A stretch of DNA of 64,000 nucleotides from a virus. The DNA is taken from the IMG/VR virus record IMGVR_UViG_3300009376_000011, positions 1-64,000 of that record. One strand, written 5' to 3'. Made by a program: the position numbers and the translations under genes. Below the pieces are notes generated by a model that saw nothing but the letters and a program-made list of their open reading frames with translations, had not been told where the DNA came from and made no database searches. Shown here piece after piece: positions 30,501-62,154 of this stretch (position 1 is the stretch's first letter; each line of letters opens with the position of its first letter).

Positions 30501-33500
30501 TGAAGCCAGACGACAGCGACGCGCTGAGCGTGGCGCGCAGCGTGGCCGTGGTTTGGCAGAGGCAACTGAAAGGTTTAGGGAGCGGAACGAGGAAGCAATT
30601 CGTCGTAGGGACCGGCGAGAAGGAGCGCGAGCCGACTTCCAGATTTTGGAACGTGAACGTAAAGCCCGTGCGGATGCCCGTGTTAAGCGAGAATTGGATC
30701 GACAAGCGGTTCGTGATCAGCGTCGGGAACGGATTCGTCGCCGGGTTGAAACGTTCGGAGAGCGCCAAGAAGCAGCGATCAGGCTGAGGGATCGGGAGGA
30801 AGGAGCGCGAGCCGATTTCACTGAGATCGAATTGCGGCGCGAGATGCGGCGTCAACGGGTCCGTGATTTTGCCCGTCGGGTCAGAGAAATCAATGCTGAT
30901 AGGACTCCTGAAACCCGCGAGGTGGGCAGGAAAGCGGCAAGGGCTAGGAACGACCGGTCGGCAGGGGTGTCTAGAAGGTTCGATGAAATCCGTGTTAGGC
31001 AGGAATCGTTGCGTGGGATGCCGAGTTCCGATAGATACTACGAACCGGATGATGATCCAGAGTTCCAGCGTGACTTTGAGCGCACTTTGGAACGCTTCTA
31101 TGTAGATATGCAAGATTACACGCTTGTAGATCTTGGCGACGCGCTTTCAAATGCTGGTAACCGTCAATTGGAGGAGGCTTTCGACTGGGAAGACCCGGAA
31201 GTTGACGCACGACTTGAGACGCCGATCAGGGACTTTCCTGAAGATTGGAAAGCAACAATTAGGGGTATTGTCGAAAACTCCTTCTATGACGACCCCGAAG
31301 CGCTTATGGGTCAACGTCGGTCACGAAGAAATATGTTTGGGCAAACGCTCCAGAGTCTGGGGAGCGACAAGGAGCCTGTTATTAGTTGGACAGCGAGGAT
31401 TGAGGAGATCGACGCTCTTATTACAGAGTTGAACGATGTGTTCTTCGACAAGTATTGGGATTTGGATGCGGACGGGTACAACATTACGTCTGGCGTTTAT
31501 ATGGATAGCCGATTCGGGGATCGGATATCTCAGGGTGGCGGGAATGCAGTCGGGCGCAAATATGACGAATTGATTGCTGAACGTGAAGCACTTTTCGATA
31601 AGCGTTGGATGTTGACCGATGAGGAGGAAGCGAGGATTTATGAAATTAGTGGTGAAATCGAAGCGTTATATGCAGAGACAGACTGGATGGGCGTATCAGA
31701 TGTACATCGTGAACGGTTTGAGGCGATACGAGCGAGGCTTGATGAACTAGATCGACCGATAGTGTTGGATAGAGGGATGATTCAGGGGATGCCCTCTGTC
31801 AATGAGATGGTTCGATCTGAAGAGATTTTTGAGAGGGCGAAGGAGCGGCGTGAACGTTTGAGGGACATTCGGAGACGAGTCAAAGCGGGCGAAGAAGTAG
31901 ATCCAGCAGAAATATTTAATGAACCGGTTCGGGGTGTTCCCGTTGTCAACGAATGGCAGGAATCACTAGAGGACAGGATAAGTGGAATTTCTGCACAGGA
32001 GCGCGTGAAGGCTAGGCGTGAACGTTTGGAGGCCATTCGGGAACGTCGCATTGCGGAGGCAAAAGCCAGAGATGCAGACTTCGATCCAGATGATATTGAT
32101 CCAGACGAATGGCATGACGAAGGCTCTCCGGCGGGTGGCATATTTGATTTGGATCAGCAGATTCGGGGGATGCCTTCTGTCGAAGAGATGGTTCGGGCTG
32201 AAGAGATGCATGAGAGGGCAATGGCGCGGCGTGAACGTTTGAGGGACATTCGGAAACGAAAGGAAGCGGAGGCTAGAGAAGTTAGGGATGCTGGTGTATC
32301 GCCTGCGCTTGTCGGTCAGCCGATACAGAACTTGGTGCCGACGCCAAACGATTCGGATCTTCCCGGTGAAGATGTTCTGATTCGGTATCGGCAGGGCGAT
32401 GAGGTCAAGATTGGAAACCGCTGGGGCACGGTGGTTCGCAGCGATCCGGGTGGCGGTGGTCGCGGACCCTTCTATGTAGTCCAATTTGAAGATGGACATA
32501 GCGAATCTTTCCCCATGTATCGGGTGACGGGGGATTCGGACTTGAGGCGCAAGCGTCGTGCTGAAGGAGTTGAACGACACTTTTACCCAGATGGGGCGAT
32601 ACCAGTTGAAGATTTCACTTCACAGGGACTAATTGACGAAATGGCGATGATTAAGGAAAGGTGGGATGGCGCAGATGTCATCCCAGTCGAAGACATGATT
32701 CGTTTCGACAACCTGCAAATTGCGTGGCATGAGAAGAATCCCGGCAAGGATTTAGGATCGGTTCGCAATAGTCGGGGTTATCCCGTTGATGTTGAGTCTG
32801 TTGAATATGGTGATGGAACGAGGGCTGATTTCGGTAGCAGCGGTGTAGGTGGCGACCTGAACTCCCAAATGGTTCGGGGGATGCCTTCGGTAGAACGAAT
32901 CTTGAGTGCGCCTCCCGACAGGTTCGATCCAGAGATTGATATTGATCCTGACACATACCACGATGATCCGCTTCGTCCGGGTCGGGATGAGCGGATTGTT
33001 AGGAGTTTGTCTGCTGCGGTAGATAAGTGGTTGGGCGAAGATTATTTTGATGCTTTTGAAGATCATGAACTTGAAAAAGCAATGAGTGATGCCATATTGC
33101 TGATTAGGGCAAAGAATGGTGGAGATCTCAAGTTTGCTGACTTCATTGAACCTAGTGCAAATTGGCCGGAAGGCTTCCTACATGCCGAACTTGGGGCAGA
33201 GGAAATGTTCACTAGGGAAGGAATTGAAAAGGGATTGCTGGCTGGCGTGTATGACGGCGACATTCCTGAGGGAGTTTTGCTTGAACTGCAAAATGATCAT
33301 GGTTGGAATCGTGATCCGGTTGAACGAGTTTCGGCCATAGTTGAGGCCATGTTGTTTCATCGTGAAGATATGGACAACCCGGAAGTTTTCCAAGAGAACT
33401 TGACGGCGATGTTGGACAATCTTTCGGTATGGGACGGCATGATGAACCGTTACGAACTAAACAAGTTGAATAATAGGGATCGTGATAGAGAGCCGTGGCA

Positions 33501-36117
33501 TGGTCGTCAACGCAAGATTCTTGTGAAGTTGACTCAACGATTTTTGAGTGATCGGAAGTCGGAAAACGAACGGCGACGCAAGGCTCTTACCGCACCGTTG
33601 GAAGATGCGTCGATGGAAAGAAGGTTTGATCCGGTTCCGGGTGAAGGCGAAGTAGATGTGCCCGAAGATGAACAAACGTTCTTGCAGAAGATTGTTGACA
33701 GGATTTGGAACAAGCGGCTCAAGGTTGTGAAAAAGGAATATGAGCGTCGCGGCAAGCCGCCGGAGACGATGCCTCGTTCCTTTGAAGAGTTGGGTATCAA
33801 TGTAGATGAGATTTTGGCTAGGGGTAGTACGACTCCAGAAGAAGATGAAATTATCAAGAAGTGGGTTATTTCAGCGTTTTCGTTGGGTGATGCCAATCAG
33901 TTTGCTGGAACAGATAGTTTCATGTGGCGGCTGCGAAACCAGTGGGGGAATGATGATGATGACATACCGAATATAACTATTCAGCAGACTGGGGGACAGA
34001 TCACTGCCAGTTTTAATGCTTCTATCGAATTTAAAGCCCCTAGAGACATTGAGGATCGCAATGGTCAAACAGTAAAGGGCGGCGAATGGGTTGCGAGCGG
34101 TAACACTGATCGGGTTATTACGATCAACAGAAGCAGGGGAGGTAATCCGCCAAAGATTCATGTTAAGAATAGTGAAATGTTTGTTGATACATACTCAACA
34201 TACGGTGTTAGAGGAAAAGGTTTCGCAACCTTCTATAACAGCAATACTTGGATACATGTCAACCAGTTGGGTGGACCTGATTCATATATTGGTGTTACTG
34301 CTGCTGATGATGGAAAGGTGGTTTGGGGTATACAGGGATTCAATGACCCTACTGTGGTTAAAACAGCGATGTCTAACATCCTCAAAGAATTGATTGCCTA
34401 TGAGACGGATCGTAAGCCCGGTTTGATTCGCAATGATCAAATGCACGAAGACTTGAAGAGGCTTTACAACATTCATTCCGCCAATGAAAACGACTCTCCT
34501 GTCACTCTTCAAATGATTCATCATGTTTTACGAGGGGGCGGCAAACATCCTTGGGAAGACATTGCACATACTGATGATCGTCCTTCTGGTATTAGCACAG
34601 ATGTGTTGTCTAGAGACAAGGATATTGATGCTATTGAAAAAGATCTATCCAAGAAGATTAACAAAGACGATCCCCTAGAAGCCGGGATGCTTAAAAACGC
34701 TTATGGCAATTGGTGGGCATCGAATGGACTCTTCGGCGGTGGAGATTTAGGTGTCGGGTCGGACGATCCTATCGGCAAGATTATGGCGGAGGCTGCTGAT
34801 GAAATTAGGGGTGGTCCGCCGGATGCTGATGTTGATACGCCGGATTCTCCACGACGACGGGATCGGGCAGCGGAGCGTAGGGCGAGAGGCAGAGGAGAGG
34901 AAGGACCAGCAGAAGTTCCTTTGTATAGGGGATTGAGGAGGGGGCGGTCGAACTTGACGATTGGCACTTCAGACGAACTGGGTCGTTCTGGGTTGGTTTC
35001 AACTTCGATGGAAGATAGCGACATCAAAACGCCCGCAGCCGCTGCTGAACATATTCGTAATGGAGGAAATATCTCTGATGTTCCTCGCGAGTTGATTCTG
35101 GAAGCAGCGTTGAAAAATTCCAGCGGAGACGAAAAAGACGAGTCAAAACTTTTCAGACTGGTGACCGTTGACGAAGATGGCAATCCCGGCGCGAACGTCA
35201 GTGGTGGCACTTTTGGTACATCGTATGTTTTCCTTAAGAGGGATCCAGACGGCAGGTCCGATAGTGAGCCGGGGACGGAACAAGGATTTATTATCAAAAG
35301 CCCGGACTATGCATTTGAAACGCCCGGAAGCGACGGGGGAGGCATTGCAAATGTCAGCCAATACAACGAGATTATTGGACGACAGATAAGTCAATTGCTT
35401 GGAGATCCGACCGGTGGCGTGATGGTAGATGGAGAAGACCCACGGGGTAATCCTTATATCGTTATGGAGTTCAATAATGTAACTGCGGATATCGGACTTG
35501 AAATCCCTCTAGCACATATGAGTTTTGAGGAGCGCAACGAACCGGAAATGTTGAAGTCTCGCCTTAGGGCTTTACTGATCGGTTACAGCATGGGTCTGGG
35601 AGATAGGCACGGCGGCAACTTGTTGGTTGGTCAGAGCGAATACACGGGCGGAACAAACCAGACAGGCGTGACCAATATCGACTTCCAGCGGGCTTGGGGA
35701 GCGACAACAGATCTTCGTGGTTACATAGATGGGCATATGGCTGAAGGCAGCGGTTTCCCCGGATTTGGATTGCTTAGTGAATTGCGACAGGCGGTTAGGG
35801 AGGGCAAGTTGAGCGAATCAGAGTTGGGGGGAGTAGTTCAGGAAGTCCATGATCAGATGAGAAACATCAAAGATGTTCACTTGGAAAGAATCTTTGGGGA
35901 TCTTCCCGAAGTCCACGCTTTGGGTGGGCGAGACATGTCAACTATGGGTGCTGCTCGTCGTGGGCCGGACGATGTGGAGACTCACGCGACGAACGTTAGC
36001 AACCATCTGGAGATGACATTAGCCACCCTTTCCGGTGGAGAAATGCTAGTGATGGAACTTTTGGAAAATGATGAAGATGAAGAACCATGGTATGGGGAAG
36101 GGCAGCGGACGTTCTAA
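27577..36117 (+). CDS. Giant 2846-aa protein with GNAT-like, ART-like and kinase domains
   Basis: ATG with GGGAG upstream; a single uninterrupted frame of 8.5 kb. Layout: basic Gly/Arg-rich N-terminus; a motif with CPTGY...NCGG (about 251-275); a Ca-loop-like DADGDGLVQEGTIWERP (about 638); Arg/Glu repeats with six copies of a unit containing RRRDREEGARADF (about 710-1100); five (R/Q)G(M/V)P-type motifs (1146-1770); an SH3/KOW-like piece (about 1605-1650). The C-terminal third has RGKGFATFYN and WGIQGF (about 2210-2245, GNAT-like), LYRGL plus LVSTS (about 2447-2470, ART-like), and a kinase. The kinase has a Gly-rich loop, FIIK (about 2571), GDRHGGN (about 2675) and IDF (about 2701). A virion-delivered multi-effector is my inference. 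Confidence 0.75.
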   Translation: MSDKPLEVKGPQDLIDVIPQERITGDILRGHGPRRGGLEHLLKFWRPIMRKPGGFRRCIVILANHPELYPLQPLCAWLHHETTGKWPNEGNHHGGGGAARAAGRVARRAIPGKRRRRRGKSEDGVEIASWRVYRRVARMDGGITTRPIDGDQNAVAYKAARFVQGLQSVPMPGSFDWTKQPIEVKGRGHGRLGRTLSSIASYFTPGDMSKYRSPIRSALWGALFPGGGGIGPSGGIGGGGARPSIGGGALRCPTGYINGGRFTDPKLSNCGGLVFDVPAKGPGAVTSGDVSKMTRRFESITAEDVPDVVRDVVVKKPKGDPFAVVREAAIRPNRAGSPARRESVVNDVVDFVGKNVGTTRLVRRDGVVYEPTLTPEELVKMKDHDAIKGAVYVTSKIGKGAIAGDEIRLLSKGVEAIEYAFGQGSVRVERKTDIPVGVGAKMRTRWASISRDPDIIINPFAHVEKFVQEFPEFVEIKPKFDGVKKPNERVVVTSSDGQKRVVSRWIHHMFLSPRAPRRLAGVKPYNIAKESGTKTLREQRFNREQYAVFSVEKKNLALRPDLSDQFGKPSLADLRISDTDGMSRDSLVDLKAARFVLAQLDEDMAVKVFGRRRMRGVRLSRFARRIPKVVPYNPRARDADGDGLVQEGTIWERPSGTIFRGLKAGARKLAGSVQLVDGNGKNVDYKPGENQRSPLRTSRFDPLKRRLAGASERFGGRREQGIRRRDQELDATADFTEVELRRQARKARRQRALARIRQRGAGVRERRTARMERGAERDEAAAGRHTERARELTSQRRDRDEFDRSRRDMRGRQRAEREELDRRSPRRERRTQRRDERRRRMQERLTEFGERNEEAIRRRDREEGARVDFGRRRPSIAERAAAAAERFRERREEGIRAEDRRRGARADFGKLDRERESRRRDRRGPTRRSERTPGEQRGRAAGAADRLRERNEEAIRRRDREQGARADFGILEREREARRQRRAERGAQRGRGLAEATERFRERNEEAIRRRDRREGARADFQILERERKARADARVKRELDRQAVRDQRRERIRRRVETFGERQEAAIRLRDREEGARADFTEIELRREMRRQRVRDFARRVREINADRTPETREVGRKAARARNDRSAGVSRRFDEIRVRQESLRGMPSSDRYYEPDDDPEFQRDFERTLERFYVDMQDYTLVDLGDALSNAGNRQLEEAFDWEDPEVDARLETPIRDFPEDWKATIRGIVENSFYDDPEALMGQRRSRRNMFGQTLQSLGSDKEPVISWTARIEEIDALITELNDVFFDKYWDLDADGYNITSGVYMDSRFGDRISQGGGNAVGRKYDELIAEREALFDKRWMLTDEEEARIYEISGEIEALYAETDWMGVSDVHRERFEAIRARLDELDRPIVLDRGMIQGMPSVNEMVRSEEIFERAKERRERLRDIRRRVKAGEEVDPAEIFNEPVRGVPVVNEWQESLEDRISGISAQERVKARRERLEAIRERRIAEAKARDADFDPDDIDPDEWHDEGSPAGGIFDLDQQIRGMPSVEEMVRAEEMHERAMARRERLRDIRKRKEAEAREVRDAGVSPALVGQPIQNLVPTPNDSDLPGEDVLIRYRQGDEVKIGNRWGTVVRSDPGGGGRGPFYVVQFEDGHSESFPMYRVTGDSDLRRKRRAEGVERHFYPDGAIPVEDFTSQGLIDEMAMIKERWDGADVIPVEDMIRFDNLQIAWHEKNPGKDLGSVRNSRGYPVDVESVEYGDGTRADFGSSGVGGDLNSQMVRGMPSVERILSAPPDRFDPEIDIDPDTYHDDPLRPGRDERIVRSLSAAVDKWLGEDYFDAFEDHELEKAMSDAILLIRAKNGGDLKFADFIEPSANWPEGFLHAELGAEEMFTREGIEKGLLAGVYDGDIPEGVLLELQNDHGWNRDPVERVSAIVEAMLFHREDMDNPEVFQENLTAMLDNLSVWDGMMNRYELNKLNNRDRDREPWHGRQRKILVKLTQRFLSDRKSENERRRKALTAPLEDASMERRFDPVPGEGEVDVPEDEQTFLQKIVDRIWNKRLKVVKKEYERRGKPPETMPRSFEELGINVDEILARGSTTPEEDEIIKKWVISAFSLGDANQFAGTDSFMWRLRNQWGNDDDDIPNITIQQTGGQITASFNASIEFKAPRDIEDRNGQTVKGGEWVASGNTDRVITINRSRGGNPPKIHVKNSEMFVDTYSTYGVRGKGFATFYNSNTWIHVNQLGGPDSYIGVTAADDGKVVWGIQGFNDPTVVKTAMSNILKELIAYETDRKPGLIRNDQMHEDLKRLYNIHSANENDSPVTLQMIHHVLRGGGKHPWEDIAHTDDRPSGISTDVLSRDKDIDAIEKDLSKKINKDDPLEAGMLKNAYGNWWASNGLFGGGDLGVGSDDPIGKIMAEAADEIRGGPPDADVDTPDSPRRRDRAAERRARGRGEEGPAEVPLYRGLRRGRSNLTIGTSDELGRSGLVSTSMEDSDIKTPAAAAEHIRNGGNISDVPRELILEAALKNSSGDEKDESKLFRLVTVDEDGNPGANVSGGTFGTSYVFLKRDPDGRSDSEPGTEQGFIIKSPDYAFETPGSDGGGIANVSQYNEIIGRQISQLLGDPTGGVMVDGEDPRGNPYIVMEFNNVTADIGLEIPLAHMSFEERNEPEMLKSRLRALLIGYSMGLGDRHGGNLLVGQSEYTGGTNQTGVTNIDFQRAWGATTDLRGYIDGHMAEGSGFPGFGLLSELRQAVREGKLSESELGGVVQEVHDQMRNIKDVHLERIFGDLPEVHALGGRDMSTMGAARRGPDDVETHATNVSNHLEMTLATLSGGEMLVMELLENDEDEEPWYGEGQRTF

Positions 36118-36398: not shown

Positions 36399-36636
36399 TG
36401 TAAGTGCAGAGACGATTGGCAAGATGCAGAACTACATAGAGGCGCGCAATACGCCGGAGCGGTTGGGCATTGTCGAAATGGTGTCTCAGTATGTTCTATC
36501 CGATCTTCCTCCAGAAGAAGATAAAGAAGAGGCTTTGATTCTGTCGCGCTATCACCTGTCTACGGATAGGGGAACAGAAGATTTGAAAGCGTTGTATCCG
36601 GATGCTGTCAGTTGGATGGAGGAAGGCAATTCATGA
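36391..36636 (+). CDS. Hypothetical helical protein (81 aa)
   Basis: The start overlaps the previous gene by 8 nt and the stop overlaps the ATG of the second giant gene (ATGA at 36633-36636). It is helical, with ERLGIVEMVSQYVLSDLPPEEDKEEALILSRYHLS. Family unknown. With its neighbour it forms a pair of small coupled proteins between the two giant genes. Confidence 0.65.
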   Translation: MGNVSAETIGKMQNYIEARNTPERLGIVEMVSQYVLSDLPPEEDKEEALILSRYHLSTDRGTEDLKALYPDAVSWMEEGNS

Positions 36637-39600
36637 GATATCCGGAATACCGTCTGAACGAGGTCGGTTTTCGCGCTCGTTTATATGATGTAAACCATAT
36701 CCCTCTTGAAAAAGGGATAGGGAGCATAATCAGACGCGTTCCGAAGGTGGTTCCGTATGACAACGATGCCCGTGATGCTGATGGCGATGGTCTAGTTCAA
36801 GAGGGGACAATCTGGGAGCGTCCTGCTGGTACCCGTTGGGTGAGCAAGTTGGGTAGCGCTCTTTCTTCTGGCTTGCGTGCCATTCCGGGTAACTCCAAGA
36901 TTGTGGATAAAGACGGCAACGATGTTGATTACAAGCCCGGAGATAAAGCACAGGGTGGACGGGCGAAACTTCGTGGTCTGTTGGCTCGTCGCCGGTTGCG
37001 TCGGGCAGGTAAACGTCGGCGTCGTGCAGCGGAAAGGCGCGAAGAGGACAGGGAGCGTAAGGCTCCTGAAGAATACGACAAGTTAATTGAAACTTTGGAA
37101 AACGCCGCTAATGCTGCAAGTCAAGAGCGGCTGATCGAAGCAGAGAAGCAGCGCGGCGATGCGCCGATGGACGGACCTTTCCGTTCATTCTGGGACACGT
37201 TCATGGAAGCGTTCACGGGCATGAAGGGGGGGAGGGAGGATCGCAATTCCCGTGACAAGGCGCGTGGTAGGAGCGCTATTCGCAAGGCTCTTCAGATGGA
37301 GGGAAACCGGCGGACGGCTGGCGACGAGAACGGTAATGAGCCTGATCATGACAGGGAAAAGGAGTTCGATGAGGAGGCATTAGACGGTAAGGGTGTGATG
37401 CCTTCTGCGATTGAAGAGCATCACAGGAAACTTAGAGAGGATCCTGAGTATCGCAAGCGGTGGAATCGTGCGTTGCGTGAGGGCAAGGTAGATCAGTTTA
37501 TTGAGAAGGAAGGTTTGAGGCCGATTCCCGATGGCGGGGATCGCGATCCCGACCGACCCCGACCCCGAATTGATCCCAAGCCACCAACGGATGCTCCAGA
37601 GGCCGGGAAGCCGTTGACTGATTTGACCGACGACGAGTTACAGGCTCGGATTGAGGCATTGCAAGACATCAATGATGACATGTCTCTGGATGATTTGTCA
37701 CCGGCACATCAGGCGGAGTTGGATGCGCTGTATGAGGAGCGTAATAACCGTTGGCTGCGGGGCGAGGGTCCGCGACCCCGCCGCCCAGAGCCGGATGATC
37801 CAGAGGCAGATGTTGAACCGGGGTTTGAATTACCCGATGAGGTAATCGAAAGCATTGAACATTACAGGGATACCGTACTGCCAGAATTGAGTGATCAAGA
37901 CTTGGCTCAAGAACTTGCTGAACTGCGAGAAGCGCTGAACGCTGATGATTTGGAGGACAGGTTCCCAAGAAATGATGGGCCTGAACGGTTTGCTTTGGCG
38001 TTGCAGGAGCATCGTCGTCGTCTTGTTCAGCAAAGGGAAGAGCGGAACAGCCCGGAAGCGATGATCGCCCTCGCTGACGCTGTATCTGAAGAGGATTTAG
38101 ACCAAGCGGTTGGGGGCGTACTGCCCCTACATCTTTACCCGCGGGACATGGTGGACAACCCACGTTCGGAAGAGGCGGTGAAGGCTTTCAATGAGAGGAT
38201 TCGTGAGCGTCTTGCGGAAAGGGATGAGGCTAGGGCGGCACGGGGTCTTCGTTGGAGTGACGAACGAATAACAGGTGCGTCCGATGAGGAATTGCAACGT
38301 CGTCGTGCAGAACTGGTTGCTTTGGATCCAGTTGGCAACGATTCGGCAATTAGGACAGAACTTGAACGGCTGGAGAGCGAACGGATTAGGCGTGAAGTAT
38401 TAGCGGGGATGCAGAGAGATCTAGATGAATATGAAGAATCTGACGACGATCTTCCGGGCGATGCGTTCTTCGATAACGAGGGTTGGATTGAAGGCGACTT
38501 CGCTTGGGACGATGATGCTATTGACGCCGCGATCAATGTTGCTCTTGCTACTGACGATACGAGGACTATAGAAGGAATAGAACGCTCGCTTCAAAGGTAT
38601 AAGTACGATATGACTACGAGCGAGTGGCGTGGCGCTAAGGGTCGTCGGCATCGGGAAATTCAAGCGATTTTGGATCGTAGGCGTGAGGAGAGGGAGCGTC
38701 CGACTAGGACGGTGCCGCCAAGGGACGTTGATCCCTATGGAGATGACGAATTCGGGTTTATGAGCGATGAAGATCTTCAACGCCATATAGATGATCTTGA
38801 GAATATTGAGGATCGCTCCCCGGATCAGGAGGCGCGTTTAGAGGCTTTGGGTAATGAGTATGACGAACGGTTTGGAACAGAAGCAGATGTTGAAGACATG
38901 GAGCGCGAGGAGCGGTTGGAATGGTACGAGACTGATCCTGCAAGTCTTTCCGATGAGGAACTTCAAACTGAAATCAATGAACTGAATTCTGAATCGGATT
39001 TGGACGACGATGCAATGGCGTGGTTGACCAAACTTTCTGAGGAGGATGACAGGCGGCAGAAAGCCCGAAATGAACAAGAGGATCAAGAAGCGGCAGAAGC
39101 GGAAGCGGCGGAGGAAGCCCGTCAGGCTGAACTAATTGAAGAGCAGCGAGATCCACGGGATATGACTCCTGAGGAAATGGCTGAAGAAATCAACGCCATT
39201 AACGAGGCTGATGAAGATGAGTTAAATGAGCATTGGGGTTCGTCTGAAGCGGCGATGGATCGTTACAACGTTTTGCAGGATGCGCTTAGTGAGCGCGAAG
39301 AGCAGGATGCTAGAGATCGTGATCAGGAAGAGATTGAGGATCGTATTGCTGAGCAGGATGATCCTACGGAGATGCGGGATGAGGACATCGGTGAAGAGAT
39401 GTCTGAACTGTTTGATATTTCCGAAGATGAAGATTACAACGAGGAAGCGCGGGCACAGGCTAGGCAGCGATGGGAGTTGTTGGCAGCCGAACAGGACAGG
39501 CGTGAACGGGAAAGAGAACAGGATGAACGGGATCTGTCGGATGCGTTAGACGAGCGGCAGGCTGAAGAGGATGCTGAGGAGGATCGCATCCGTGAAGCGG

Positions 39601-42600
39601 AAGAACGAGAAGCCGAAGAGGCAGCCGAAGCCGAAGCAGCCCGAGAAGCGGAGATAGAAGCCGAAGAACGTCAGGTTCGTGTCGATGAACATGAGAACAA
39701 TCCTCCGAGCAGTCTTTCTGAAGAAGATCTTGCTAATGAGATAGCCGAACTTAGTGATTCGGAAATCATGGATGATCTTGATAGGGATCGTTTGAATGAT
39801 CTTGAAGCCGAAGTTGAACGTCGTATGGAAGCGGCGGCTAGGCGTGAAGATTCCAATAGGGGTGAACGTAGTAGAAGCCTGAGGTTCCGCGATGATGAAA
39901 GTCTTCAGGAAGAACTAGACGAGTTGATGGAGGATCCTGACGCCGATGAGGCTCGTATGGATGCGCTTGAAGCCGAATTGGATCGTCGGGAAACGCAACG
40001 GAGTCGGCGCACAAGGGAACGTACCCGTGAACGCACAGACGAGTTGGAAGCGGCGGAACAGCGCGAGTATGAAGGAGAGGGAGAAGATGACGAAGAAATT
40101 CTCCTGCCGGAAGTAGAGCCTGATTATTCCGACGAGGACGAAGAGGATGCTGGAGGCCCAACGGATGGGGATTTGATTGATCCTTACGCGGAGATGGAAA
40201 GGGATATGACGACTCCGCCTCCGGACGAAGAAGATGAAGAAGATGATATTGATGAGTCTGGCGCGAGGCCAATTCCGGAAGAGGACGAGACACCGGACCG
40301 AACCGGTATGCCCGATGAAGGTGGTTCGGGTCCGAATGGCGAGTGGACGGATGCGGATGAGGCGGCAGATCCAGCCGATGATCGTTTCGCTGAGTTGGAA
40401 GACAAACTGGATAGTTTGGATTGGAACATACATGCAGCGATGGCTGCCGGTGATGACGAACAAGTTTTGGGCTACTTGCTCAGACGGGAAGAATTGTTAG
40501 AGGACGACGGCGGTTTGATCGGAACTCACCGTGAAATTATGAGGCATGAGCATGATGCTGAAATCTTGCGGTATCTGACCGAACATGAATATAAGGATGG
40601 AGCGAAGGCGAGGGAAGACGGGGGTCCATCCCATGAGCATTATGAAAATAATCAAAAGTATTTGAATGTGTACGCGGAGGCCCAGAAACGTGGCTTGTTA
40701 GATCCCGATCCTGATCCGGTTGATGATTCGCCGGAGGCGGATCTTCCTGACCCTTTAGAGGGTAAGACCCCGGAGGTCGCTGAGGCAGAGGAAGCCATAA
40801 GGCGGGATTGGGACGGTTATTCTCCAGAAGAGAAAGAGTATTTAGCCCTTCATTTCGTAGATACTGAAGTAGCGAAACTTGAACAAGGATTGATTGACGG
40901 GTACCGCGGCAAGTCTGCTGTAACTGTGCCTCCACTTCCGGATGATGCTACGCCGGAAGAGAGGGAGATCTCTGCCTTGCAGCAGTCGTACCTGAATGCG
41001 AAGGAAGCCACGTTTCAGTTGTTGGCACGAAGGGATATGTCTGGCACGTTGGGGGGTATAGATCATTCCGTTCAAGAGCAACATGCGTTTACCGGCGATA
41101 TTTCGGCTAGACAAATTCTTGCTGCCCATATTTTCGACAAGTTAGATCAAGCCGATTTGAGCAGAGTAATAGACGCACTTAATCCAAACACAAACATGCT
41201 GGGTAATGTTCCTTACGATCCCAATTGGTCAAGGATGGACTTTTATGATGACTTCGACAATCGGGACATTCCTTCGGGAATAGTAGCGTTGGCAGTTAAA
41301 CGTATGCAGGACAAGATGCAAGCAGATGGAACAGTGGTTACTGATGAACAGGTAGCCGAAGCAATGTCAGAACTAGAAGTAAATTTTGCGGCTCCGCTTG
41401 GGGAGGCGATGAGAGCCGAATTGGATCGTCAGATAAAACGAATGGGTAGTGAAGAATTAGGCGGTACGGCTGATCCTTTCCTTCTGAATTTGATACTGCC
41501 GATGGGTGGTCCTCCTACCGGTATTGATGCCATGAATACGCGAAATTCATTCATGGACGATCTCTGGTCGCCGGATGGGTACGGTCGTATGCATAGTGCT
41601 GACTTGTTGCGGATAACTATAGGCGCTCCGAATGTTGGTAAGGGTATGGGCGAAATTGGTCGTCTCATAGTTGAAGATCTTGATGTTGGTTTTGTTCCGC
41701 AGAATATGCTCCATAATCCCGATTTGCTTATTCAGGGTATAATTCAGGCTTACGCTAGGCAACTGAGTAGCGGCGCTATTGACGAAGCGACTTTTGTTAA
41801 TAATCTTAAGAGCCTTCCTGCTGACTTGGCAAAGGGTTACAGGAAGCACGCGACAGCGGGATTAGCAGCATCCCGATCAGGTCCGGGCGCAAGACTCCAT
41901 AGGGATATGGCGACAGCACTTTTTGGGAAGATTGGAGCAGCCGACGAAGCATCCGCTAGAGAAATGTTTGATGCTGGAGTCAAGTTAGCGCTGTTTAAGT
42001 CGGCTGAAGAGGGAGATCTCAGACATTTGGCGTTGGATGGAGTTATTGATGTTCAAATGCCGTTGACTGAGACAGAAGTCGTTGCTGGCTTGATCAGAAA
42101 GTTCCGGGTAATTACAGATGTGCCCGTATCGTTCGGCACCGCAGCGGACGGAGGATCGTTAAAATGGGAGCCTCCTATAACAAGTCGGGGACGAAAGTAT
42201 CAATTGAATCCTTCAGAACAGCAGGCAGCAGCCAATGAGATTGAGGCAGCCGCTGCCCTGTTGTTGCCAGATGATTGGATTGACCTTAGCAATTCATCCG
42301 GCAGAGTTGTTCTGTATAAGCAAGATCTGGACCGTGCTTCGTTTGGTAGTAAGACAACACTTGGCCTTGAGGCTGCCATGCCTGAAGGTGTAGGCACTAG
42401 TGACGGCGCTATAGATATCACTAGAAAGGATTTCACTATTACAGATGGTGGTCATGAAATAGTCCACAGGATTCAGTCCGTAAACGTATTCTTGCTGTTG
42501 CAGGATGATGCGTTTGCACGGCGAAGGCAAACTCCTGCTACTGAGGCAGAAGCAAGATCTCCGAAGTTTAGAAAGCGAACCTTCAATACAATTCTAGGTA

Positions 42601-42878
42601 GGACTGGTATGGGTAGTGAGTCTGCTATTGAAGATCACTTTTCTTTGCCTTACATGGGTAAAGCCTATAAGTCACGGCGTGGTGATCTAAGAATAGAGGT
42701 AAGTTCTACAGGTGTAGAACTTTTGCTTGGAGGGAAGGTTGGTGCCGGACACCGTCCCAAAGATCAGCAGAGAGATGCTAATGGAATACCTCAGGAGTAT
42801 ACGCTAGCGGATGCCTTAGCGGAAGATCGAAGCAGTTCTTGGATCGGTCACGTTTTGGCAATGCTGGTTGGCGTTTAA
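36633..42878 (+). CDS. Giant 2081-aa repeat protein with C-terminal zincin domain
   Basis: ATG at 36633 with GGAGGAAGG nine nt upstream. Residues 30-100 repeat the module of the first giant protein (KVVPYDNDARDADGDGLVQ, then DYKPGD). From about 330 to 1120 there are at least eight copies of a 40-70-residue helical unit of the form (L/M)SDEELxxEIxEL...RLxxLExExDRR within Glu/Asp/Arg-rich sequence. The C-terminus has GGHEIVHRIQ (HExxH at 1941-1945), then DHFSLPYMGKAY and an EVSSTG motif with a possible third ligand E2022. This fits a gluzincin-like metallopeptidase. Internal regions 1250-1900 are unrecognised. It may enter the head with the first giant protein. Confidence 0.75.
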   Translation: MRYPEYRLNEVGFRARLYDVNHIPLEKGIGSIIRRVPKVVPYDNDARDADGDGLVQEGTIWERPAGTRWVSKLGSALSSGLRAIPGNSKIVDKDGNDVDYKPGDKAQGGRAKLRGLLARRRLRRAGKRRRRAAERREEDRERKAPEEYDKLIETLENAANAASQERLIEAEKQRGDAPMDGPFRSFWDTFMEAFTGMKGGREDRNSRDKARGRSAIRKALQMEGNRRTAGDENGNEPDHDREKEFDEEALDGKGVMPSAIEEHHRKLREDPEYRKRWNRALREGKVDQFIEKEGLRPIPDGGDRDPDRPRPRIDPKPPTDAPEAGKPLTDLTDDELQARIEALQDINDDMSLDDLSPAHQAELDALYEERNNRWLRGEGPRPRRPEPDDPEADVEPGFELPDEVIESIEHYRDTVLPELSDQDLAQELAELREALNADDLEDRFPRNDGPERFALALQEHRRRLVQQREERNSPEAMIALADAVSEEDLDQAVGGVLPLHLYPRDMVDNPRSEEAVKAFNERIRERLAERDEARAARGLRWSDERITGASDEELQRRRAELVALDPVGNDSAIRTELERLESERIRREVLAGMQRDLDEYEESDDDLPGDAFFDNEGWIEGDFAWDDDAIDAAINVALATDDTRTIEGIERSLQRYKYDMTTSEWRGAKGRRHREIQAILDRRREERERPTRTVPPRDVDPYGDDEFGFMSDEDLQRHIDDLENIEDRSPDQEARLEALGNEYDERFGTEADVEDMEREERLEWYETDPASLSDEELQTEINELNSESDLDDDAMAWLTKLSEEDDRRQKARNEQEDQEAAEAEAAEEARQAELIEEQRDPRDMTPEEMAEEINAINEADEDELNEHWGSSEAAMDRYNVLQDALSEREEQDARDRDQEEIEDRIAEQDDPTEMRDEDIGEEMSELFDISEDEDYNEEARAQARQRWELLAAEQDRREREREQDERDLSDALDERQAEEDAEEDRIREAEEREAEEAAEAEAAREAEIEAEERQVRVDEHENNPPSSLSEEDLANEIAELSDSEIMDDLDRDRLNDLEAEVERRMEAAARREDSNRGERSRSLRFRDDESLQEELDELMEDPDADEARMDALEAELDRRETQRSRRTRERTRERTDELEAAEQREYEGEGEDDEEILLPEVEPDYSDEDEEDAGGPTDGDLIDPYAEMERDMTTPPPDEEDEEDDIDESGARPIPEEDETPDRTGMPDEGGSGPNGEWTDADEAADPADDRFAELEDKLDSLDWNIHAAMAAGDDEQVLGYLLRREELLEDDGGLIGTHREIMRHEHDAEILRYLTEHEYKDGAKAREDGGPSHEHYENNQKYLNVYAEAQKRGLLDPDPDPVDDSPEADLPDPLEGKTPEVAEAEEAIRRDWDGYSPEEKEYLALHFVDTEVAKLEQGLIDGYRGKSAVTVPPLPDDATPEEREISALQQSYLNAKEATFQLLARRDMSGTLGGIDHSVQEQHAFTGDISARQILAAHIFDKLDQADLSRVIDALNPNTNMLGNVPYDPNWSRMDFYDDFDNRDIPSGIVALAVKRMQDKMQADGTVVTDEQVAEAMSELEVNFAAPLGEAMRAELDRQIKRMGSEELGGTADPFLLNLILPMGGPPTGIDAMNTRNSFMDDLWSPDGYGRMHSADLLRITIGAPNVGKGMGEIGRLIVEDLDVGFVPQNMLHNPDLLIQGIIQAYARQLSSGAIDEATFVNNLKSLPADLAKGYRKHATAGLAASRSGPGARLHRDMATALFGKIGAADEASAREMFDAGVKLALFKSAEEGDLRHLALDGVIDVQMPLTETEVVAGLIRKFRVITDVPVSFGTAADGGSLKWEPPITSRGRKYQLNPSEQQAAANEIEAAAALLLPDDWIDLSNSSGRVVLYKQDLDRASFGSKTTLGLEAAMPEGVGTSDGAIDITRKDFTITDGGHEIVHRIQSVNVFLLLQDDAFARRRQTPATEAEARSPKFRKRTFNTILGRTGMGSESAIEDHFSLPYMGKAYKSRRGDLRIEVSSTGVELLLGGKVGAGHRPKDQQRDANGIPQEYTLADALAEDRSSSWIGHVLAMLVGV

Positions 42879-45531: not shown

Positions 45532-45563
45532 AAGCCCCCCGGAGTAATCCGGGGGGCTTTCTC
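45532..45563 (+). terminator. Strong terminator after the capsid gene
   Basis: A perfect 12-bp stem, AAGCCCCCCGGA (45532-45543) with TCCGGGGGGCTT (45548-45559), and a GTAA loop, followed by TTCTC-type sequence. It separates the capsid transcript from the minus-strand block that starts at 45568 and would also stop transcripts coming from the other side. Confidence 0.85.
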
Positions 45564-50604: not shown

Positions 50605-51491
50605 TGGTTGCAACAATGGAAGGCCCAGCAGCGGCCAAGAAGTATGTAAATGATTTTCTTGCGGCTGATATGCCGACAAGATTGTTGAACTATCGGAATA
50701 CGTTGAGTTTGTCGGATAGTGAACTTCCGAACCCAGTTAAGTATTTGACGTTTGAACCTTTGACTTTGGATAACTGGCCGACGTTGATTACATTGGTGGA
50801 GTCCACCGGACAGATTGTTAAAGATTCCTACGAACCGGGATTGGATGCTCTTTATCAGGTCATTTATCGGATGCGTACCTATTGTTGGGTTCGGGCCACA
50901 GGGGCTAATGAGGTAACGGTTGCCCGAGACAATATGACAATGGTGGTGCGAGATGCACTACTAGATCGTCCTGCCCTTCGTACCGCTGCACAGGAAGGTA
51001 CAGATTGTGAGATCAAAGTCGATGAGGGAACCCTTACCGAAGACTTTTCTGATCTAACGTTGCTAAAAGGTGAACGTTTCCTTGCGGCTTCATTTTTATC
51101 GTATGAACTGAGTCTGTATGAATCTATCGGTCGTGCGAATGCGGGAGTAATGCTGACTGGTGTGTTGAACGAATCTTTGATGGAAAAGGTTCCTAATAAC
51201 CCAACGATGCTTGGGGGAACAGGTGGAGACACCAATGCGACGCTGAGTTGGAAAGCACCGACCTACGACGGTGGCGGGCCTAATCCGATTACTGGTTACA
51301 CAATTCAAGCCTCCACGAATAAGGGAGTGACTTGGGCAACAGTTGTTGCTAATACTGCAAGTTTGAACCCGACCCATGTTGTGGGGGGGTTATCTAATGC
51401 GACTTCTTACACGTTTAGAGTGGCTGCTTTAAATGCTGATGGAACTGGTGCATATTCATCTGCTTCAGGAAACATCATACCTTCTGCTTGA
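50604..51491 (+). CDS. Neck/tail-terminator-like protein with C-terminal fibronectin type III domain
   Basis: The N-terminal 185 residues occupy the place of the tail terminator in the gene order and contain the segment YEPGLDALYQVIYRMRTYCWVRA seen in such proteins. A clear FN3 domain (about 196-295) follows, with VPNNPTM, ATLSWKAP, ITGYTIQAST, LSNATSYTFRVAALNADGTG. FN3 domains decorate virions and may bind host surface glycans. The start overlaps the previous stop (TAATG). Confidence 0.72.
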   Translation: MVATMEGPAAAKKYVNDFLAADMPTRLLNYRNTLSLSDSELPNPVKYLTFEPLTLDNWPTLITLVESTGQIVKDSYEPGLDALYQVIYRMRTYCWVRATGANEVTVARDNMTMVVRDALLDRPALRTAAQEGTDCEIKVDEGTLTEDFSDLTLLKGERFLAASFLSYELSLYESIGRANAGVMLTGVLNESLMEKVPNNPTMLGGTGGDTNATLSWKAPTYDGGGPNPITGYTIQASTNKGVTWATVVANTASLNPTHVVGGLSNATSYTFRVAALNADGTGAYSSASGNIIPSA

Positions 51492-51514
51492 TAACCCTAT
51501 ATGGGTGCTAATAT
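51488..51514 (+). promoter_or_regulatory. Possible late promoter with palindromic spacer before the sheath gene
   Basis: TTGATA (51488-51493) overlaps the stop codon of the upstream gene. The palindrome ACCC-TATAT-GGGT follows, then TAATAT (51509-51514, 15-nt spacer) or TATAAA (51512-51517, 18-nt spacer). The same arrangement, TTGATA plus a C-run/G-run inverted repeat plus an AT -10, occurs before the tail chaperone gene at 53623. Confidence 0.45.
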
Positions 51515-51609
51515 AAAAAGCGGACAGATACATGCAATGAAAGACCTTCAGAGCCATGTAAGATTTGTCCACAAAGTTCGTCATCGGCCCAACAACGGAG
51601 GCGCGGGGA

Positions 51610-53109
51610 ATGCCCGGAATCGTAATTAACACCGCAACTAGAAGCGGACCATCAGGAACTGGGGAGACGATCTCAGCGCAGGCGTTTATGGTGGGTACCA
51701 CTGAACGTGGTCAGACATCTGAGCCTAAACTGATTCGCAATCTCACTGAGTACACAAAGTTTTTTGGTAAGTATGTTGTAGGAAACTTGCATACTTACGC
51801 TCAGACTTATTTTGAAGAGGGTGGATCGCGCTTGTATGTTCAGCGTGCTGTAGCCGATGATGCTGTAGCGGGTAGCCGTGCTTTTGTTAATTCTGCCGGT
51901 TCGACAGTTGCCACATTTTCTGCCGCAGACGTTGGGGCATGGGCAGCAAATCTAGATGTTCAGATTGTGGCTGGTGATGTTTCCGGTGTTCGTGTCAAGG
52001 TATTTCTTGATGACGAACTCGTATTGCACACTAACGATTTGACCACGCTTGATGCTTTGATCGCCGCTGTTAATGCGGAAGAGCCTACTCGTCATTTGGT
52101 TACAGTTGCTAAAGAGTCGGGGGCCACGACTCTGCCGGTGGCGACATCTGCGGTGGCTATGTCTGCTGGTGCTGATGGAACGCTGGTTACTGATGCCAGT
52201 TCAACCGACAACTATATTGAGGGTTTGGCAAAGATTGGCAAGGATCTTGGTCCGGGTTCAGTTTCGATTCCCGGTATTGCAACTGCTAACTCTTATTGGC
52301 ACGCACTTATTGATCACGCGAAACTAAATGACCGGATTGCTATTTGTGCGTTTACCGAGGCTGCCAGTCATACGACTGCCAAGAGTTCTTTGAGCGGTGC
52401 TTCCCCAACGATTTATGCTGATAACGATGCCCATTATGCGGCCTTCTATTATCCGTGGGTGAAGATCCCCGATCCGGCTAATGCTGGTTTGACGGTTACC
52501 AACGCACCTGACGCTTATGTTCAGGCGAAACGTTCCAAGGCTGCTAACGAGGTTGGAGGCCCGTGGCGTGTTGGCGCTGGCGCTATTTCAGAGGCGAAGT
52601 ATGTCAGTGGCTTGGCCCCACCGTCAGGCACGACGATGGACAAGGCAACTGGTGACGAGTTGGATAACTCTCGCATCAATGCGTTGCGAATCATTAACGG
52701 CGGTGTTCGTGTCTATGGTGCCCGTTCTGCTTCTGTGACTGAATCCGATTGGCGATTCATTACTTCACGGGACACGATCAACCACATTGTTTATCTGACC
52801 GAGTTGGAGTTGGAACGTCACACGTTCTCCACTATCGACAATCGGGGTGGGCTGTTTTCGGCCATCCGGTCTTCGCTGATTGGCATTTTGGAACCGATTA
52901 AAAAGGCTGGTGGCCTGTACTCAGCCCACGATTCATCGGGCGCATTGGTAGATGATGGCTATGTGGTAACTGTCGCTGATAGTAATAATCCTGCTAATCA
53001 GTTGGCAGTTGGTCAAGTCACTGCCGATGTTGCAGTCAGGGTGTCGGCTGTTGGTGATAAGATTACTGTCAACATCACGAAGTCCAACCTTACGGCTGGC
53101 GTACTCTAA
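51610..53109 (+). CDS. Contractile tail sheath protein
   Basis: From ATG 51610 (MPGIVINTATRSGPSG, GGAGG eight nt upstream) the protein has 499 aa. The N-terminal PGIVI strand, VQRAVADDAVAG, the mid-region YYPWVKIPDP, WRVGAGAISEAKYVSG and above all INALRIINGGVRVYGARSAS followed by WRFITSRDTINHIV are hallmarks of phage sheath subunits. This gene defines the phage as a myovirus. An upstream TTG at 51565 is in frame but lacks a ribosome binding site. Confidence 0.92.
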   Translation: MPGIVINTATRSGPSGTGETISAQAFMVGTTERGQTSEPKLIRNLTEYTKFFGKYVVGNLHTYAQTYFEEGGSRLYVQRAVADDAVAGSRAFVNSAGSTVATFSAADVGAWAANLDVQIVAGDVSGVRVKVFLDDELVLHTNDLTTLDALIAAVNAEEPTRHLVTVAKESGATTLPVATSAVAMSAGADGTLVTDASSTDNYIEGLAKIGKDLGPGSVSIPGIATANSYWHALIDHAKLNDRIAICAFTEAASHTTAKSSLSGASPTIYADNDAHYAAFYYPWVKIPDPANAGLTVTNAPDAYVQAKRSKAANEVGGPWRVGAGAISEAKYVSGLAPPSGTTMDKATGDELDNSRINALRIINGGVRVYGARSASVTESDWRFITSRDTINHIVYLTELELERHTFSTIDNRGGLFSAIRSSLIGILEPIKKAGGLYSAHDSSGALVDDGYVVTVADSNNPANQLAVGQVTADVAVRVSAVGDKITVNITKSNLTAGVL

Positions 53110-53124
53110 ACAGGGAGTGAATAG

Positions 53125-53595
53125 ATGAAACTTGCACAGAGGCAGATTATCGGCAGGATTGCGCCTTGTACTACGGTTAATGGTATGCCTGCTCCTCCGG
53201 ACTTCCTTGGGCATTTTGCTCAGGTGTCTGGTGGCGAGATCACGGCTTCGGTGGAGAAGGTGTTTGAGGGTGGAAAGAAGTTCCCTGAGACGCTGTGCGC
53301 TCCTGCCGAGGTCGGTGACGTTACTCTGACCCGCCATTATGATCCGGAACGTGACGGTGAATTGGTTGCTGGTCTGCGGGGACGGGTAGGCAGTGCGTAT
53401 TACAACATCACTATTGAAGAGACGAATTGTGATCTTGTAGTGTCGGGTTCTACAAATAACCGAATTTTTACTGAGGCTCTTGTTGTTGGTTTGACTGAGC
53501 CTGATGGCGATGCTTCTTCTGGAGCGCCTGCGACCTTTAGCATTACTTTGGCTATTGGTGGTTTGAAAGAGGGCGCTGCGAATCCCGCTACCTAA
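53125..53595 (+). CDS. Tail tube protein
   Basis: The 156-aa protein directly follows the sheath gene and has the length and beta-rich pattern of myovirus tubes: DVTLTRHYDPERDGELVAGLRGRVG, then YYNITIEETNCDLVV, then PATFSITLAIGGL. It polymerises inside the sheath to form the DNA channel. GGGAG precedes the ATG. Confidence 0.87.
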   Translation: MKLAQRQIIGRIAPCTTVNGMPAPPDFLGHFAQVSGGEITASVEKVFEGGKKFPETLCAPAEVGDVTLTRHYDPERDGELVAGLRGRVGSAYYNITIEETNCDLVVSGSTNNRIFTEALVVGLTEPDGDASSGAPATFSITLAIGGLKEGAANPAT

Positions 53596-53622
53596 TTTTC
53601 GTTTAGGTTATTAACTTAAAAC

Positions 53623-53651
53623 TTGATACCCCGGTAACGGGGTGTTATTAT
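53623..53651 (+). promoter_or_regulatory. Promoter TTGATA-N17-TATTAT with a palindrome filling the spacer
   Basis: TTGATA (53623-53628) and TATTAT (53646-53651) are near-consensus and exactly 17 nt apart. The spacer is an inverted repeat, ACCCCG-GTAA-CGGGGT (53628-53643), which as RNA would also be a small hairpin ending the tube transcript. The element may be a regulated promoter, a processing site, or both. Confidence 0.6.
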
Positions 53652-53688
53652 CTGGATGTCATAACAACGTCCAATGGAGAAATATATT

Positions 53689-54216
53689 ATGGCTGATGAA
53701 AAGGTAACGAAGACTATTTCTTATGATGTTCCCGAAGATAGCAAGGAACAACTTGTAGAGAAAGAAGCAAAGCCTTCAGTTCTGGAACAGTTGCGTAATG
53801 TTGTTGAACAGAAGGTTGAGCGAGGCGAAATCGAAATCAGTGTTCCTGAGCGGGAAGGTGTTGCGGTTCGATTTTCCCCGAATGTCACTCAGCAGCAGTT
53901 GCGTGCATGGCGACGGAATTCTGGTGAAAACAGCAAGGATGGATTTGATCCTTTGAGGTTTGCCTGTTATGTGGTTGGTTCGACCTGTACCGGAATTTTG
54001 ATCAACGATGAGATTGTGGAAAATCCGACAAATGGGATTGCCATGACGTTTGCCTCTGATTTGATTTTGGAAATGACTGGTGATACTCGTCCGATCCCTG
54101 ATGGGATTCGCAACTTCTACGGGATTGATCCTCATCTGGAAGCCACGGCATTGGCGATTTTGGATGCTGCTGGTTATGGAGATGAGATTGATGAGATAAA
54201 CCCTACGATTCGATAA
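53689..54216 (+). CDS. Tail assembly chaperone, frame 0 product (gpG-like)
   Basis: ATG at 53689 (MADEKVTKT) with GGAG upstream. The 175-aa protein lies between tube and tape measure, the universal place of the tail assembly chaperones, and has the family's mixed helical pattern (VTQQQLRAWRRNSGENSKDGFDPLRFACYVV). It escorts the tape measure protein during tail assembly. A slippery heptamer near its end allows a -1 shift into the following frame. Confidence 0.8.
   Translation: MADEKVTKTISYDVPEDSKEQLVEKEAKPSVLEQLRNVVEQKVERGEIEISVPEREGVAVRFSPNVTQQQLRAWRRNSGENSKDGFDPLRFACYVVGSTCTGILINDEIVENPTNGIAMTFASDLILEMTGDTRPIPDGIRNFYGIDPHLEATALAILDAAGYGDEIDEINPTIR
54198..54204 (+). other. Programmed -1 frameshift site AAACCCT
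   Basis: In frame with the chaperone gene the codons read ATA AAC CCT, so A-AAC-CCT fits the X-XXY-YYZ slippery rule exactly. After a -1 shift translation continues TAC GAT at 54204. The -1 frame is open from just upstream of the heptamer to 54413, while frame 0 stops 10 nt after it (54214-54216). Confidence 0.75.
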
Positions 54217-54413
54217 TAGAAGATTTAGCAGAATCTCCTGTTATCGAAACAGCCGCACGGCTGGGGGAAGTATTTCACACTGATCCGATTCAACTCTTGG
54301 ATTGTTCCGAGGAGGATTGGATGATTCGGATAGCATGTGCAATGGTGATAGCCGCTGATCGTGAGAAGCAAGAGAAAGAGGCGGAAGCGGCGCGTAAGGG
54401 TAGGCGTAGATAA
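54204..54413 (+). CDS. Tail assembly chaperone, -1 frame extension (gpT-like)
   Basis: This 69-codon extension (YDSIIEDLAESPVIETAARLGEVF through a basic end EAARKGRRR) has no good start codon of its own and would be made as a fusion of 241 aa by frameshifting at 54198-54204. A ribosome-slipping pair of this type precedes the tape measure gene in most long-tailed phages. The helical, Lys/Arg-terminated sequence fits gpT-type extensions. The extension ends 17 nt before the tape measure ATG. Confidence 0.75.
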   Translation, partial: YDSIIEDLAESPVIETAARLGEVFHTDPIQLLDCSEEDWMIRIACAMVIAADREKQEKEAEAARKGRRR

Positions 54414-54430
54414 ATAGAAAGTAACGTATC

Positions 54431-61357: not shown

Positions 61358-61404
61358 AAAGTATACTAATTCAGAAAACAACTATACCTAGTGAGGTGTT
61401 TAAA

Positions 61405-62154
61405 GTGTCATTGCCAGCAAAGAAGAATGTTGATCTTTCGCTGCTTCATCCACGTTTCGTACAACGGTTGGAAGCCTTCTTTAGAGATCCGCGTATTAGC
61501 GGTCGTGTAAGGATTACAAGTGGTTGTCGAACTTATGCAAAGCAGAAATATTTTTATGATGGCTATAAAAATCGTAAGGCTGGATTTAACTTAGCCGCAA
61601 ATCCGGATCGTCGGTTTGGGCCTAAAGCCTTAAATGGTGTCGGCATTTGGCGTGGAAGTTGGCACATGGAACAGGACGACGGATTTTGCTACGCGGTCGA
61701 TTTTGGATTGTGTGGTAGTGGAATTAAAAAGTGGGAAGTGAATAATATTGCGAAAGAGTATGGTTTGCATCCGACGGTTCGTGGTGAATGGTGGCATCAT
61801 CAGCCGCGGGCTTCTACTGAGTGGTTTGATGCTCCCGCATTGGCTCAGGGTGGTGTTAAGGAAGAAGTCAAAGAACCAGTCATGGATTGGGCAGCATTGG
61901 TTAGGTATCACAATGCTCTTACTGCTGAAATCAGGACGAATCCGATTCGGAGGAAAGAGCGTTCGGATCGGGTGAAGGTGTTGCAGCGTCGGTTGGGGGC
62001 TTTGGGTATTGATTGCGGAAAGATCGACGGGATCTTTGGTTGGAGAACTAAAAGGAAGGTCAAGCAGTTTCAGCGAATCAACCGTCTGACGAGGGACGGG
62101 GTTGTTGGGCCGAGAACGTGGGATGAAATGTGGGGGAGTGAGCCTTTGTCGTAG
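61405..62154 (+). CDS. Endolysin: M15 peptidase plus peptidoglycan-binding domain
   Basis: The start is GTG at 61405, with GAGG eight nt upstream. Residues 1-135 form a VanY/M15-type zinc peptidase: SGCRTYAKQ, then WHMEQDDGFCYAVDFG supplying H87 and D99, and EWWHH (128-132) with the catalytic Glu and third ligand. A peptidoglycan-binding domain (about 190-245: VKVLQRRLGALGIDCGKIDGIFGWRTKRKVKQFQ) follows. It should cut the peptide stems of the wall. No holin is adjacent. There is no signal peptide, unlike the lysin-like protein at 2690. Confidence 0.88.
   Translation: MSLPAKKNVDLSLLHPRFVQRLEAFFRDPRISGRVRITSGCRTYAKQKYFYDGYKNRKAGFNLAANPDRRFGPKALNGVGIWRGSWHMEQDDGFCYAVDFGLCGSGIKKWEVNNIAKEYGLHPTVRGEWWHHQPRASTEWFDAPALAQGGVKEEVKEPVMDWAALVRYHNALTAEIRTNPIRRKERSDRVKVLQRRLGALGIDCGKIDGIFGWRTKRKVKQFQRINRLTRDGVVGPRTWDEMWGSEPLS

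Follow-up and report, generated by a model that had tools for sequence, protein, structure and literature searches.

Intrinsic terminators often follow the order A-rich stretch, GC hairpin and T-rich stretch, whereas the operators of the MerR family place a palindrome between the −35 and −10 elements of promoters in which the spacer is lengthened to 19–20 bp. In phages T7 and LUZ100, an intrinsic terminator is reported to stand directly 3' of the high-copy capsid gene, and separately started genes come next. The locus described here, termed site B, lies between the tail tube and tail assembly chaperone genes of a virus from the IMG/VR collection, and likewise carries a hairpin directly 3' of a high-copy structural gene, ahead of genes that would be separately started; it differs from the T7 and LUZ100 terminators in that the hairpin and the next predicted promoter share bases, and in its weak U-tract. 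With extended −10 promoters of the sigma-70 type, site B shares a TGnTAnnnT-like −10 and a 17/18-nt spacing, but its spacer is at the same time a conserved inverted repeat. It resembles the MerR operators in the palindrome between −35 and −10, and departs from them in its spacer of normal length (17/18 nt in 17 of 17 sequences), its single copy, its wobble-type variation, and the lack of a MerR gene among the matches in the record. The tail operons of cultured phages of the genera Bendigovirus, Klausavirus, Marthavirus, Ayohtrevirus and Cantarevirus have the same gene order and a hairpin at the tube–chaperone junction; this hairpin, however, is longer than that of site B, its loop is complementary to a stretch close to the start of the chaperone gene, and a loose −10 pattern is found in only one of 12 distinct segments. 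As far as seen in the literature, the arrangement of known signals at site B is new: a weak search of titles and abstract beginnings, mostly of open-access papers, returned no phage tail junction described as having a terminator hairpin within the spacer of a promoter, and no report of a tube–chaperone pseudoknot.

The stretch analysed, hereafter the window, comprises 64,000 nucleotides (positions 1 to 64,000) of the 67,432-base record IMGVR_UViG_3300009376_000011. The local gene order is head–tail adaptor, neck, tail gene, sheath, tube, chaperone and tape measure (coordinates in the table), and the phrog matches bear out the names sheath, tube and chaperone used in a preliminary description, which had placed two late promoters before the sheath and chaperone parts of the tail operon. 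By sheath protein, the closest named phages are Gordonia Bendigovirus (~35% identity) together with Arthrobacter and Brevibacterium phages. The chaperone frame is overlapped in the −1 frame by a second open frame at 54150–54418, in keeping with the programmed frameshift given in the annotation of phage GMA6. Two very long open reading frames (27577–36117 and 36612–42878; 2846 and 2088 aa) lie in the interval from the head genes to the capsid gene. Directly 3' of the major capsid gene, a 12-bp GC-rich terminator-like hairpin is located at 45532–45559; it is absent from the terminator scan list, and its position indicates that hairpins behind high-copy genes are within the repertoire of this phage.

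Table. Positions of the features in the window and, in the last row, in the cultured phage records.
Feature	Position	Strand	Evidence or remarks
TTGATA and ACCC/GGGT palindrome, site A	51488..51505	+	not conserved; judged incidental
Extended −10 TGCTAATAT of site A, sheath promoter	51506..51514	+	TGnTAnnnT, 23/23 distinct relatives
Sheath 5' leader element	51529..51567	+	stem TACATG 51529–51534 / CATGTA 51555–51560
Invariant GTAAGATTT			located 3' of the sheath leader stem
Sheath start and upstream GGAGG	ATG 51610; GGAGG 51597–51601	+	read from the sequence
Tail sheath gene	51610..53109	+	phrog_23, E 9.5e-31
Tail tube gene	53125..53595	+	phrog_5102, E 2.1e-23
−35-like TTGATA of site B, chaperone promoter	53623..53628	+	CTTGA/CTTGC in 17/17 distinct aligned relatives
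RNA hairpin occupying the spacer, site B	53624..53647	+	folding; relatives
Perfect arms of the site B hairpin	ACCCCG 53628–53633; CGGGGT 53638–53643		further pairs, including wobbles, give 10 bp
TG-extended −10 of site B	53643..53651	+	TG 53643–53644, TATTAT 53646–53651
Second inverted repeat TGGATGT/ACGTCCA	53653..53673	+	across the predicted start site
Tail assembly chaperone ORF	53674..54216	+	phrog_5088, E 1.9e-14; start more likely 53689
Shine-Dalgarno GGAG and likely chaperone start	GGAG 53676–53679; ATG 53689–53691	+	read from the sequence
Tube–chaperone gaps with loop pairing	L083 3311–3410; L085 3319–3413; L084 3307–3407; L091 4406–4502		also L086–L090, L092–L097

At 53623–53651 the window reads TTGATACCCCGGTAACGGGGTGTTATTAT, letter for letter as first reported. 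The two hexamers give 10 matches out of 12, a TG is present, and the spacer of 17 nt is occupied by a GC-rich RNA hairpin 3' of a gene, as in an intrinsic terminator; this hairpin has 10 bp and −16.4 kcal/mol (z −3.59), and 0 of 200 shuffled sequences were as good. As a U-tract the tail, TGTTATTATC, is poor, and site B is missing from the output of the terminator scan; the U-tract is clearer in the more distant L074–L081, L034 and L138. The palindrome, in the form ACCCC-N4–8-GGGGT, occurs once in the 67,432-base record, no second copy being found in the other promoter-like gaps of the window or in the whole record, and a palindrome common to the late promoters was for this reason rejected. The second inverted repeat straddles the predicted start site, so that its full form would be possible in read-through RNA only; by eye, comparable inverted repeats are present in L015, L022, L030 and L031.

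The sheath protein retrieved 40 loci, and in 30 of them the tube–chaperone junction has the layout CTTG[A/C]-N19/20-TAnnnT, the spacer of which contains an inverted repeat; among the remaining ten, L003, L021, L029 and L036 end before site B, and L034, L035 and L037–L040 are without the layout. After collapsing duplicates, 17 distinct sequences were aligned, in which CTTG is invariant, the −10 follows at a distance of 17 or 18 nt and is kept as TGTAnnAT or TGTTAnnAT, and the letters of the spacer vary yet stay paired. Members of the clade closely preserve the half-site (C)ACCC/GGGTG, with a half-site spacing that varies by 1–2 bp. In the 13 sequences that share one register (the window, L004, L008 and L011 were omitted, their arms being shifted relative to the −10), 63 of 65 cells are paired, both unpaired cells belonging to L030 and possibly reflecting a bulge. 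The innermost pair is C-G in ten sequences, U-A in two and U-G in one, and A-U and G-U alternate; altogether, these 13 sequences contain three GU and two UG wobble cells and no A-C mismatch. The absence of A-C, even though a DNA palindrome loses its symmetry by either transition, suggests pairing in RNA, on the basis of few independent events. Covariation within the clade is modest, since the observed score was reached in 18 of 500 column shufflings and just a single pair shows changes in both partners. The spacer beats its shuffles at p<0.05 in 15 of the 17 sequences, L017 and L030 being the exceptions, and a spacer stem of at least 5 bp was found in only 16 of 290 other promoter-like matches, the sole background row used because the class resembling site B was defined by the motif and is hence circular. 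Site B is kept in relatives down to ~51–61% tube identity. In summary, site B is real: its promoter elements, pairing and location are conserved, and the arrangement is recurrent.

In more distant phages the junction still carries a hairpin, which differs in sequence and position and in many cases takes the form of a U-tailed terminator beside a leaderless chaperone promoter. Inverted repeats around TAGCAC/GTGCTA, with the right arm overlapping the −10, are present in L059–L065, L037 has TCCGCC/GGCGGA after TTGACA, and L119/L123 have ACGGTT/AACCGT before the −10; in L138 a U-tailed terminator follows the tube and is succeeded by a separate promoter, and in L034/L035/L039 the U-tailed terminator after the tube precedes an inserted gene and then the promoter (these assignments being partly by eye). 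The start of the inserted gene resembles, by eye, the endolysin ORF at 61396–62154 of the window. In L074–L081, a strong long hairpin (−20 to −29 kcal/mol) with a T-rich tail leads directly to the −10 and the ATG, while L127, L137 and L139 have no clear hairpin of this kind by eye. When the whole 110-nt junction is folded, no more than 28 of 53 distinct segments reach a z of −2; a hairpin by the definition used, which is weak on its own, is present in 53 of 53. An ATG is located 5–7 nt past the −10 in 27 of 41 distinct metagenomic junctions (32 of 53, minus five window-type rows whose gene starts elsewhere than at this ATG; the 53 include 12 isolates, and the −10 of L067 is uncertain), which implies a leaderless chaperone mRNA; such mRNAs are reportedly common in mycobacteria (PMC4633059).

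For cultured Gordonia, Arthrobacter and Brevibacterium phages, the analysis covered 15 of the 90 records with a matching sheath, providing 12 distinct junction segments. In 14 of the 15 records (11 of the 12 segments) the junction is without a matching −10 motif, indicating that the proposed overlap of terminator and promoter belongs to the metagenomic clades. In 15 of 15, a strong hairpin at the junction has a loop segment that can form 6–9 Watson-Crick pairs with a stretch near the chaperone start; this stretch ends 7–30 nt before the start, with p<0.06 against shuffled controls in 13 of 15. By eye, the paired letters covary in two comparisons, GMA6 against DalanDe and Schomber against UBSmoodge, and two tandem partner sites are present in the Gordonia records and in Cantare. 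These complementarities make a pseudoknot likely in the cultured phages.

The first of the two motifs, site A, is found before the sheath at 51488–51514 as TTGATAACCCTATATGGGTGCTAATAT, again letter for letter. Its TGnTAnnnT stands 16–28 nt ahead of the conserved leader motif in all 23 distinct upstream sequences, whereas TTGA at −35 distance occurs only in the six closest of these 23, with a spacer of 15 nt; in these six it takes in the TGA stop codon of the gene upstream, which in the window lies within TTGATA. A promoter of two hexamers was thus not found at site A, where the −35 is not conserved among the 23 sequences, and the site reads as an ordinary conserved extended −10 promoter. Only the window, L001, L002, L008 and L009 have an intact ACCC/GGGT palindrome, which is altered in L003–L007 and absent from the other relatives; its 4-bp hairpin (−5.8 kcal/mol, z −1.17) was equalled in 24 of 200 shuffles, and since 61 of the 290 other promoter-like matches have a spacer stem of at least 4 bp, a palindrome of this size is expected roughly one time in five. 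Given this background and the lack of conservation, the site A palindrome is incidental and at chance level. Consequently, of the two promoters with both elements proposed in the preliminary description, site B retains its −35 and −10 and site A the extended −10 only; selection on structure is upheld for site B, by conserved pairing and the comparison with shuffles, and not for site A. The notion of a common design, by which differing palindromes would occupy the same position, does not hold, as that of site A is not maintained among relatives. The spacer measures 15 nt at site A and 17 nt at site B. The pattern TTGATA-N15–18-TAWTAT occurs in the window at these two sites only (2 against 0.02 expected), an expectation that is partly circular because the pattern was drawn from both.

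Downstream of site A, the columns of the sheath leader around ACATGC..GAAA..CATGTAAGATTT show full or almost full conservation across 18 sequences. A strict scan of IMG/VR for the motif returned 26 contigs with one match each, all 26 among the 40 sheath-protein loci, so that no copy was seen ahead of another gene. Support for its fold is thin: the RNAalifold consensus (energy −1.48) is limited to an outer stem of 5 bp, in which one compensatory change (L030) and three broken cells are seen; an inner helix seen by eye in several members was unsupported by RNAalifold, and Rfam gave no match for the leader, all hits being far below the gathering scores. As a guess, it may be a translation or stability element.

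Two mechanisms had been put forward for the palindromes, a site for a dimeric protein and an RNA hairpin of the preceding transcript, and at site B the latter fits better and the former worse: wobbles are tolerated, A-C is absent, the loop varies, hairpins of unrelated sequence occupy the junction in distant relatives, and the palindrome is single in the record. A DNA operator, on which a dimeric regulator of phage or host would switch the chaperone promoter on and off, would agree with a palindrome squarely between −35 and −10 and with the well-kept half-sites; nevertheless, the distance between these half-sites varies, the changes are of the wobble type and not symmetrical, the distant relatives retain a hairpin and not the site, only one copy exists, and the spacer falls short of the 19–20 nt of MerR-type promoters, which together make an operator quite improbable. 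A search of the 67,432-base record, itself possibly incomplete, with the MerR profile PF13411 gave 0 matches, and sigma-70 region 4 gave none in the record either; a MerR regulator or phage sigma factor encoded in this record was accordingly rejected, and a host protein might still act as regulator. Chance occurrence of GC-rich letters in both spacers accounts for site A, and is already contradicted at site B by conservation over the range of tube identity given above and by the distance from the shuffles, so that as an explanation of both it is hardly credible. It is also unlikely, if somewhat less so than an operator, that the hairpin and the second repeat act within a long sheath mRNA, lowering chaperone translation or triggering processing with no termination at all: the second repeat lies across the position of the predicted start and would thus form in read-through RNA only, and in the cultured relatives the hairpin loop is complementary to a stretch next to the chaperone start, but many members appear leaderless, with an ATG near +1 that leaves no leader for folding, and several relatives have U-tailed terminators.

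The reading that we consider probable is that a 3'-end hairpin of the sheath–tube mRNA, either terminator or stabiliser, is superimposed on the promoter of the chaperone–tape measure mRNA. The GC hairpin between tube and chaperone would end, or protect, the sheath–tube mRNA, and its base pairs would double as the 17/18-nt spacer of the TG-extended −10 promoter from which the chaperone–tape measure mRNA starts, with an A-rich −35 flank where an ordinary intrinsic terminator has its A-tract, and a T-rich −10 where it has its U-tract. The order of a terminator is also that of a promoter whose GC spacer separates an A-rich −35 region from an A/T −10; both signals are proposed to be merged in the clade of the window. 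From this arrangement we infer a termination event or RNA end at site B, a transcription start there and a purpose in stoichiometry, whereby production of the many-copy sheath and tube would be independent of that of the few-copy chaperone and tape measure. A hairpin serving stability or processing would give a footprint no different from that of a terminator.

More generally, the junction may be a fast-evolving point of RNA control in contractile-tailed actinophage-like viruses, in which structure is kept and sequence is not, with the merger with a leaderless promoter in metagenomic clades and the pseudoknot between hairpin loop and near-start sequence in cultured phages both setting the ratio of tube to chaperone and tape measure; this extension is tentative and, in our opinion, rather doubtful. 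A hairpin at the junction does persist across phages with unrelated sequence there. If the merged arrangement is true, site B would hold two opposite transcription signals in one 29-bp stretch, with selection acting on the spacing of the elements as well as on pairing, and would represent a clean case of phages uncoupling high-copy from low-copy tail proteins.
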